From NCBI GenBank assembly GCA_019694955.1, contig JAIBAX010000047.1, positions 1 through 38,914 on the forward strand: a DNA stretch of 38,914 nt. The letters are read 5' to 3'. The translations under genes and the position numbers were made by a program. Position 1 is the stretch's first letter; each line of letters begins with the position of its first letter. Of this stretch, positions 2,454-35,410 are shown piece by piece. Under the pieces are notes generated by a model. It did no database searches and was not told the DNA's origin. It saw nothing but the letters and a program-made list of their open reading frames with translations. This DNA comes from Chitinophagales bacterium (GTDB taxonomy: Bacteria; Bacteroidota; Bacteroidia; Chitinophagales; JADIYW01).

Positions 2454-2520
2454 CGATGGAAATAATTATTACAATTTTAGTCATTAAATATAGAACCTTG
2501 ATAAAGAGTTATACACATGA

Positions 2521-2894
2521 AATCACTATTGTCCGATAAAAATATTTACTTCATCATTTCAATTCTTAATTAATTGATTATCAATTGTATTTACAATAAA
2601 TAATTGACAATTTTAAAACACAAGCCGGTATCATACAATAGCTTCTCAATTAACGTTATGATTTGTTGACGATTGATAAATAAATATAGTAAGAAATATA
2701 AGAAATTTTAATTATTAGCATTAATTAATCAGCAAGTGTCAATTATAACTATTTGATTTTCAAACTAAATGTTTGTCACTTTTTTGTCTTGATACAAAAA
2801 AGTAACCAAAAAAAATCAAGACAAAAATAACGCTCCACGCCTCAACAACCCACGCTCGCCGCCGATTTTTGTCATGCCCACGCACATTTTTATT
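2521..2894 (+). repeat. Dispersed repeat, copy A
   Basis: This stretch is matched, in reverse complement, by about 35066-35402. The 109 bases at 2770-2878 are identical to 35082-35190 by direct comparison. The outer AT-rich part (about 2521-2769) aligns along its length but with many differences and small gaps. The core holds an AT-rich hairpin region followed by a GC-rich block. It fills most of the 583-bp gap between the TonB-C gene and the MuiA-like gene. I see no protein-coding gene in the gap. Confidence 0.9.
2778..2827. other. Two mutually exclusive hairpins in repeat copy A
   Basis: Bases 2778-2787 (ACTTTTTTGT) pair perfectly with 2794-2803 (ACAAAAAAGT) around a 6-nt loop. Bases 2781-2793 (TTTTTGTCTTGAT) pair perfectly with 2815-2827 (ATCAAGACAAAAA) around a 21-nt loop. 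The two stems share 2781-2787, so only one can form at a time. The same arrangement exists in copy B. Confidence 0.8.
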
Positions 2895-3036
2895 TTTTCT
2901 GGACAATAATGACATGAAATCTAAAAAACGCTTTTGAATGTTAATTTTCGCTAATTATTATTTAGAAGGAGCTGCGAATATTGAATGTGAATGGTTTTTG
3001 TACCTTATCTTGCACTGATAATTGTAAAACAACATT

Positions 3037-35010: not shown

Positions 35011-35065
35011 GGGATTAATGACATTTTAAAAGGCACTTTGAAATAAATAATTATTGTTGTTTTGC

Positions 35066-35402
35066 AATAAAAAGGTGCGTAGGCATGACAAAAATCGGCG
35101 GCGAGCGTGGGTTGTTGAGGCGTGGAGCGTTATTTTTGTCTTGATTTTTTTTGGTTACTTTTTTGTATCAAGACAAAAAAGTGACAAACATTCAGCATGA
35201 AAATCAAATAGTTATAATTGGTACTTACTTATTAATCAATGCTATTTCACACTATATTTATCAATCATCGACAAATCTTAACGTTAATAGTAAAACTATT
35301 GTATAATACCATCTTGATATTTAAAATTGCAAATACAATTGATAATCAATTAATTAAGAATTAAAATAATTAAGTTTTTTTTCTAATCGGAAAATAGTGT
35401 TA
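35066..35402 (-). repeat. Dispersed repeat, copy B (inverted relative to copy A)
   Basis: This is the reverse complement of the repeat at 2521-2894. Bases 35082-35190 are identical to 2770-2878 over 109 bp with no gaps. The outer part (35191-35402) aligns along its length but differs at many positions. It fills most of the 454-bp gap between fmt and the YciI-like gene. Within the core is a 19-codon open frame beginning ATG at 35085; it is present in both copies because the core is identical, but it is probably not a gene. Confidence 0.9.
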
Positions 35403-35410
35403 AATAATAT

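Follow-up and report, generated by a model that had tools for sequence, protein, structure and literature searches.

Identical cores and divergent arms

The question raised by this locus is why a short piece of DNA is repeated without a single change when the DNA beside it is not. In the window (the whole stretch of 38,914 nucleotides analysed here, which is contig C30 of the host genome G000, an assembly of 4.1 Mb in 103 contigs), positions 2770-2878 are the exact reverse complement of 35082-35190, with 109 of 109 bases identical. This inverted pair had been reported in an earlier note on the same DNA, and is confirmed here. The neighbouring arm of the first copy (2523-2769) is 72% identical to that of the second window copy, and 69-83% identical to those of the other full-length copies.

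Copies of the core in the host genome were gathered by sequence searches. There are nine full copies and a tenth (L010) that carries an insert of 53 bp, and relatives are found in many other genomes. The core is therefore not limited to two copies in one genome, a case that the earlier note had considered, and its guess of a wide occurrence in Bacteroidota was right. An additional, truncated copy (L012, contig C7, positions 44018-44049) has the first 28 bases of the core joined to part of the L010 insert and to the right end of the element, and is a deletion derivative.

Among seven copies, the mean pairwise divergence is 0.8% in the core, whereas the left arm differs by 14.9% and the short right arm by 15.0%, a contrast far greater than chance would give. 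At a divergence like that of the arms, 109 bases without a difference would be expected with a probability of about 4e-8 in a typical pair, and of about 1e-13 in the pair that diverges most.

The cores lie within inserted elements

All ten copies of the core sit within elements of 348-433 bp that have terminal inverted repeats. When the copies are aligned in one orientation, they share a left end CACTATTGTCCGATAAAA and a right end which, read inward, is CATTGTTGTCCGG. Beyond these ends the sequences of different copies are unrelated, except that each copy is bounded by a 9-bp direct repeat. This target duplication is perfect in eight of the ten copies (ATAAGAAAT, ATATTCTAT, ACATGAAAT in window copy 1, TATTCTTAA, AATAAAAAT, AAAATAAAT, ATATTTAAT and ATTAAGAAT), and matches at 8 of 9 positions in window copy 2 (ATTATTTAA/T) and in L009. 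The mean identity is 8.8/9, as against 4.3/9 when left and right repeats are taken from different copies. No open reading frame of 80 or more amino acids overlaps any of the ten copies. The features of the two window copies are listed in Table 1.

Terminal inverted repeats, a 9-bp target duplication and ten short, non-coding copies are together the marks of a miniature inverted-repeat transposable element (MITE). Judged by sequence, the repeats are an element of this type, each copy being a separate insertion with its own terminal repeats and target duplication. This was missed in the earlier note, as was the fact, described below, that the core is a covarying folded module that is present in other phyla. 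A sister genus has elements of 205-241 bp with a related end (TTGTGCGGTTTAA), target duplications that match at 7-8 of 9 positions, and the same core.

Table 1. Positions in the window of the features of the two copies. For hairpins and loops, the strand is that on which the module is read.
Feature	Position	Strand	Basis
Copy 1, whole element, 388 bp	2524..2911		alignment of ten copies
Copy 1, left target-site duplication ACATGAAAT	2515..2523		
Copy 1, right target-site duplication ACATGAAAT	2912..2920		
Copy 1, left terminal inverted repeat CACTATTGTCCGATAAAA	2524..2541	+	
Copy 1, right terminal inverted repeat, CATTATTGTCCAGAAAAAA on minus strand	2893..2911	-	
Copy 1, left arm, AT-rich, ~15% divergent between copies	2542..2769		
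Copy 1, conserved core (structured module)	2770..2878	- (reading strand)	
Copy 1, leader motif GTGCGTGGGCAT, upstream of P1	2874..2885	-	
Copy 1, P1 5' strand GACAAAAAT	2865..2873	-	covariation
Copy 1, P1 3' strand ATTTTTGTC	2820..2828	-	covariation
Copy 1, S1a CTTGAT, its C shared with the end of P1	2815..2820	-	
Copy 1, L1, T-run, proposed third strand	2808..2814	-	
Copy 1, S2a GTTACTTTTTTGT	2794..2806	-	
Copy 1, S1b ATCAAG, hairpin loop pairing with S1a	2788..2793	-	
Copy 1, S2b ACAAAAAAGTGAC	2775..2787	-	
Copy 2, whole element, 348 bp, inverted relative to copy 1	35052..35399		
Copy 2, target-site duplication ATAAATAAT	35043..35051		
Copy 2, target-site duplication TTAAATAAT, 8/9 identical to 35043-35051	35400..35408		
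Copy 2, leader motif GGTGCGTAGGCAT	35074..35086	+	
Copy 2, conserved core (structured module)	35082..35190	+ (reading strand)	
Copy 2, P1, paired strands	35087-35095 with 35132-35140	+	
Copy 2, S1a	35140-35145	+	
Copy 2, L1	35146-35152	+	
Copy 2, S2a	35154-35166	+	
Copy 2, S1b	35167-35172	+	
Copy 2, S2b	35173-35185	+	
Copy 2, AT-rich arm	35191..35381		
Copy 2, terminal inverted repeat, CACTATTTTCCGATTAGA on minus strand	35382..35399	-	

The duplications also bear on the idea that the two cores are sites for a programmed inversion of the 32-kb segment between them, as might be suggested by two similar elements of one contig that share 109 bp of exact identity in inverted orientation. An odd number of inversions would mix the target duplications, however, and each copy keeps its own matched pair; therefore no odd number of core inversions has been fixed in the assembly. 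Furthermore, a reading of the open reading frames places housekeeping genes in the segment (those for ribosomal proteins, trmD, leuS, dapF and fmt), and copies of the element are scattered across the genome, at least ten in all. We regard programmed inversion as extremely improbable.

A DDE-type transposase supplied in trans would presumably move the element. A search of the host genome with PF01609 found no parent transposase, only one DDE_Tnp_1 fragment, this being a draft assembly in which IS copies may be lost at contig ends. Likewise, no parent element was found in relatives using the pattern of the terminal repeats. An element of about 190 bp bounded by terminal inverted repeats (L357) has no module, and occurs in a genome that also has module-bearing elements; the module is therefore not strictly needed for such elements to exist, and a strict need for it in transposition is unlikely.

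The core is a folded module

Read on its minus strand, copy 1 has a leader followed by the hairpin P1, S1a, the pyrimidine stretch L1, GGTTAC, S2a, S1b, S2b and GTGAC. The strand is fixed by one position: read on the minus strand, 16 of 16 sequences make U.G or U-A there, whereas on the plus strand the pair is mostly C.A. The plus strand was rejected as the folded strand on account of these C.A mismatches, which correspond to U.G on the minus strand. A coding explanation of the core was also rejected, since stop codons interrupt the stems, in addition to the absence of long reading frames noted above.

In an alignment of 16 sequences from the same bacterial family, both P1 and S2 have compensatory changes. 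Their covariation score was reached by none of 500 shuffles, and is lost when the structure is slid along the alignment. RNAalifold, run with no structure given, predicts S2 and the outer part of P1. Across taxa the pairing of P1 is kept with unrelated sequences, as in GAATTTCG/CGAAATTC, CTTTTTCCCG/CGGGAAAAAG and GAAAATCCG/CGGATTTTC.

The hairpin loop S1b is complementary to the bases directly upstream of the T-run, here called S1a, and the two change together: CTTGAT/ATCAAG, CTTGAC/GTCAAG, CTTGAA/TTCAAG, GAGCC/GGCTC, TCGCC/GGCGA and TGGCC/GGCCA. For 74 distinct loops, the longest Watson-Crick helix in S1 has a mean length of 3.27, as against 2.33 +/- 0.09 with shuffled partners, although the members are related, so that these pairing counts and the covariation above are not independent events. 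S1 is short in many members, at 3-4 pairs. The pairing of S1b with S1a, outside the hairpin and with covariation, is that of an H-type pseudoknot. On these comparisons, one strand of the core combines the hairpin P1 with an H-type pseudoknot downstream of it, and coordinated changes across phyla keep the pairings.

In three copies of the host genome (L008, L009 and L010), a perfect hairpin, ATCCCGAT-NNN-ATCGGGA, stands in place of the 3' strand of P1. The 53-bp insert of L010 is located inside S2a/L1.

It could be argued that the core has no function, and is merely young as a result of recent transposition or copying, the arms being prone to change. The copies of the core within the genome are indeed near-identical, and the target duplications suggest young insertions. 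However, the same module is found with compensatory changes in other genera, orders and phyla, and its structure has therefore been maintained over long times. Copying without function is consequently improbable.

A proposed third strand over the hairpin

The geometry of an H-type pseudoknot is established: L1 lies in the deep groove of S2, parallel to S2b. A third strand in this place would need to put U opposite A and C+ opposite G. Among 147 distinct elements, the base of L1 is C opposite 61 of 69 G in S2b, and T opposite 767 of 810 A; these elements were collected with patterns in which GTTAC/GTRAC was fixed and L1 mostly had to be pyrimidine, with either C or T allowed in every scan after the first (T6/A6). 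The parallel register scores 5.63 out of 6, compared to 4.81 for the antiparallel register and 4.96 +/- 0.04 for shuffled partners. When the elements are collapsed to 15 combinations, which lessens the effect of relatedness, the Fisher p is about 1e-9 in the parallel register and 0.10 in the antiparallel, and an antiparallel pairing of L1 with S2b was rejected on these two measures.

L1 and S2b therefore follow the U.A-U / C+.G-C code in the parallel register, for example as CTCTTT/GAGAAA, TCTTTT/AGAAAA, TTTCTT/AAAGAA and CTTCTT/GAAGAA. A few members break it, such as CCCTTT over GAAGAA. A genome of the same order (G601) shares the loop pairing of the host genome, but its three strands all have C/G. 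Both T/A and C/G versions occur in Xanthocytophaga flavus, so that the three strands change together within one genome. The pyrimidine run can thus be read as a third strand that lies on the purine strand of the hairpin, parallel to it, and the prediction that L1 forms a U.A-U / C+.G-C triple helix is strongly supported by sequence.

Major-groove U.A-U triple helices are found in the pseudoknot of telomerase RNA and in ENE-type RNAs. The module resembles these in that its L1, made of pyrimidines, would lie beside S1 and follow the purine strand of S2 in parallel along the deep groove. It differs in being a bacterial mobile repeat, with a predicted triplex at least 6 long and with C+.G-C substitutions. 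Few natural triple-helix pseudoknots are known, and these are mostly from eukaryotes, viruses and riboswitches. The module would constitute a legible structural code, in which three strands change together, with C+.G-C for U.A-U, across phyla and within one genome, and with up to dozens of copies per genome it offers a large natural set of mutations from which triplex rules might be read. We know of no protein partner of the module.

Probable exchange of modules between elements

Structural constraint by itself leaves the identity of the loops unexplained. The genealogies of modules and arms are discordant. Copy L002 has arms that differ by 19-28% from those of every other copy, and a module identical to that of three copies. 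Conversely, L010 has arms that differ by 7% from those of L006, and a module that differs from that of L006 at 7 of 109 positions and is close to that of L008. The correlation of module and arm distances is not significant (Mantel r 0.29, p 0.15), and r is -0.33 when L009 is left out. Because of this discordance, modules seem to move between elements by gene conversion or recombination. The near-uniform core in the host genome would then result from copies exchanging modules while their arms drift. Of the causes put forward in the earlier note, namely selection, recent copying and gene conversion, the results support a structural constraint together with recent copying or conversion between copies.

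Since the target duplications are nearly perfect, the insertions are younger than the divergence of the arms, and the arms had probably diverged before insertion.

Proposed role of the module

On the basis of these observations, the best explanation as a whole, to which we give a probability of roughly three in four, is that the 109-bp core belongs to a non-autonomous transposable element as its structured module.

The genes on the two sides of each window copy are divergent (TonB_C and DUF4140-DUF4139 for one, fmt and YCII for the other), and the earlier note linked the copies to genes for exported proteins. This link is not supported: only five of the ten copies in the genome have such a divergent setting, and the rest are between tandem or convergent genes. 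Among the ten there is no constant neighbour or orientation. For the same reason we rejected the proposal that the core is a cis-regulatory leader (a riboswitch or attenuator) of downstream genes, selected at each locus. The window copies are intergenic and upstream of genes on either side, and the T-run after P1 looks like that of an intrinsic terminator, but in many relatives L1 contains C, matched to S2b, unlike the T-run of a terminator. Each copy is moreover a recent insertion with a target duplication. A leader function is highly improbable.

Somewhat tentatively, and at rather less than even odds, we suggest that the module works in single-stranded, folded form, as RNA in read-through transcripts more probably than as single-stranded DNA, and that it forms a compact knot which serves the element. 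The service could be recognition or shielding of transcripts, and would not be for one particular neighbouring gene. RNA is likelier than DNA because U.G pairs are used, and because it is one and the same strand that keeps P1, S1 and S2.

The other possibility, which we consider unlikely, is that the structure acts as DNA and has no RNA function, either as an H-DNA mirror repeat or as folded single-stranded DNA bound by proteins of transposition or replication. L1 and S2a are mirror repeats, as H-DNA requires, and the inverted pairs, the selfish look and the lack of a constant orientation to genes would suit a DNA element. However, H-DNA requires the mirror repeat alone, and here the inverted repeat of S2b, S1 and P1 are also kept on the same strand. 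The position that is always U.G or U-A on the folded strand is also more easily fitted to RNA.

Distribution across genomes and phyla

A pattern consisting of the S2 hairpin, GGTTAC and the T-run occurs, among the matches listed, in Bacteroidota, Pseudomonas, Burkholderiales, other Pseudomonadota and Myxococcota (Cystobacterineae). A looser pattern, with C/T and A/G free, occurs 1-122 times per genome in 24 carrier genomes, and zero times in a reversed control. In Pseudomonadota the motif is in 17 of 398, including the centre genome, which was picked as a carrier. In this strict form it is in 4 of 395 Bacteroidota, including the host genome, with one control match in one genome. Within the same order, a covariance model of the module has matches in 82 of 198 genomes, belonging to 49 of 106 genera, often with many copies, these counts including the sequences from which the model was built. 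The motif is also found in a few viral contigs. A plasmid collection gave one match, in a Pseudomonas antarctica plasmid, and one partial match from Variovorax, and a phage collection gave no match to the module.

We put at about even odds the wider proposal that these repeats belong to a superfamily of structured mobile repeats, present in at least Bacteroidota, Pseudomonadota and Myxococcota, whose core is a triple-helix pseudoknot (of RNA or single-stranded DNA) that is exchanged as a unit between different non-autonomous elements. If true, the superfamily would be previously undescribed. Bacterial genomes are rich in unexplained intergenic repeats, and the module family would make the role of such repeats testable by probing and deletion.

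The arrangement of the modules varies. Inverted pairs are frequent, about 400-650 bp apart and with their GTGAC ends outward (L248-L253, L256; G991 contigs C10 and C17), and in several pairs the sequences directly outside the modules are themselves inverted repeats, different in each pair. In genome G002 (contig C14, near 218500-219010; L013/L073) module and flank are repeated three times in tandem, about every 222 bp, and part of P1 is absent from the third copy. Runs of variable hexamers, such as TTGCCG and GGCTTT, flank the modules of a Noviherbaspirillum (G068, L294-L322). Two Cystobacterineae metagenome assemblies (G075 and G076) have 122 and 60 copies respectively, many of them at contig ends, which suggests that the repeats break these assemblies.

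Relation to known repeats and RNA families

A literature search using sequence strings and terms found no description of the module, although an overlap with the R families of P. fluorescens or with MRSC motifs is possible. The element resembles the MITEs of Porphyromonas gingivalis (PMC4596501) and the MITE-like intergenic repeats of Pseudomonas fluorescens (PMC2718517) in being short, non-coding and multi-copy, with terminal inverted repeats and target-site duplications; a P. fluorescens family such as R178 could be the same. The present element differs from these repeats in that it carries a covarying pseudoknot/triplex module that is also found in elements of other phyla. Similarly, the REP/BIME sequences mobilised by RAYTs (PMC3733652, PMC2817692) are dispersed, structured intergenic repeats, often in inverted pairs. 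In contrast to these, GTAG/CTAC is absent from 2770-2878 on reading, and there are instead terminal inverted repeats and a 9-bp target duplication.

In Narunsky et al. (2024, PMC11109978), mobile or repeat sequence candidates are described as structured, present in many copies per genome and across phyla, and possibly selfish, whether as RNA or as DNA. The single published example that was compared, MRSC-65-2, is given there as a single long stem with a UYCCGG repeat, whereas the present module has P1, a pseudoknot and a third strand, and no UYCCGG in its core. It is possible that the module is already listed among the motifs of that paper, without the triplex.

None of the 4227 families of Rfam 15 corresponds to the module: searches at gathering and at permissive thresholds gave nothing in the window at the gathering score and nothing near threshold at the element. 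In one Burkholderia-type locus (L218), the Burkholderia sRNA candidate Bp1_684 (RF02421) overlaps the 3' half of the module, where it starts in S2b (AGAAAAGUGACC) and runs on downstream. It has no match in the window, and because it leaves out P1, S1a, L1 and S2a it misses the pseudoknot. In gammaproteobacteria, TwoAYGGAY RNA (RF01731) adjoins modules or sits between them (L114, 3593-3731; L227, 1343-1465; L223, 1609-1674 and 1961-2026), and this family may therefore belong to the same repeats.
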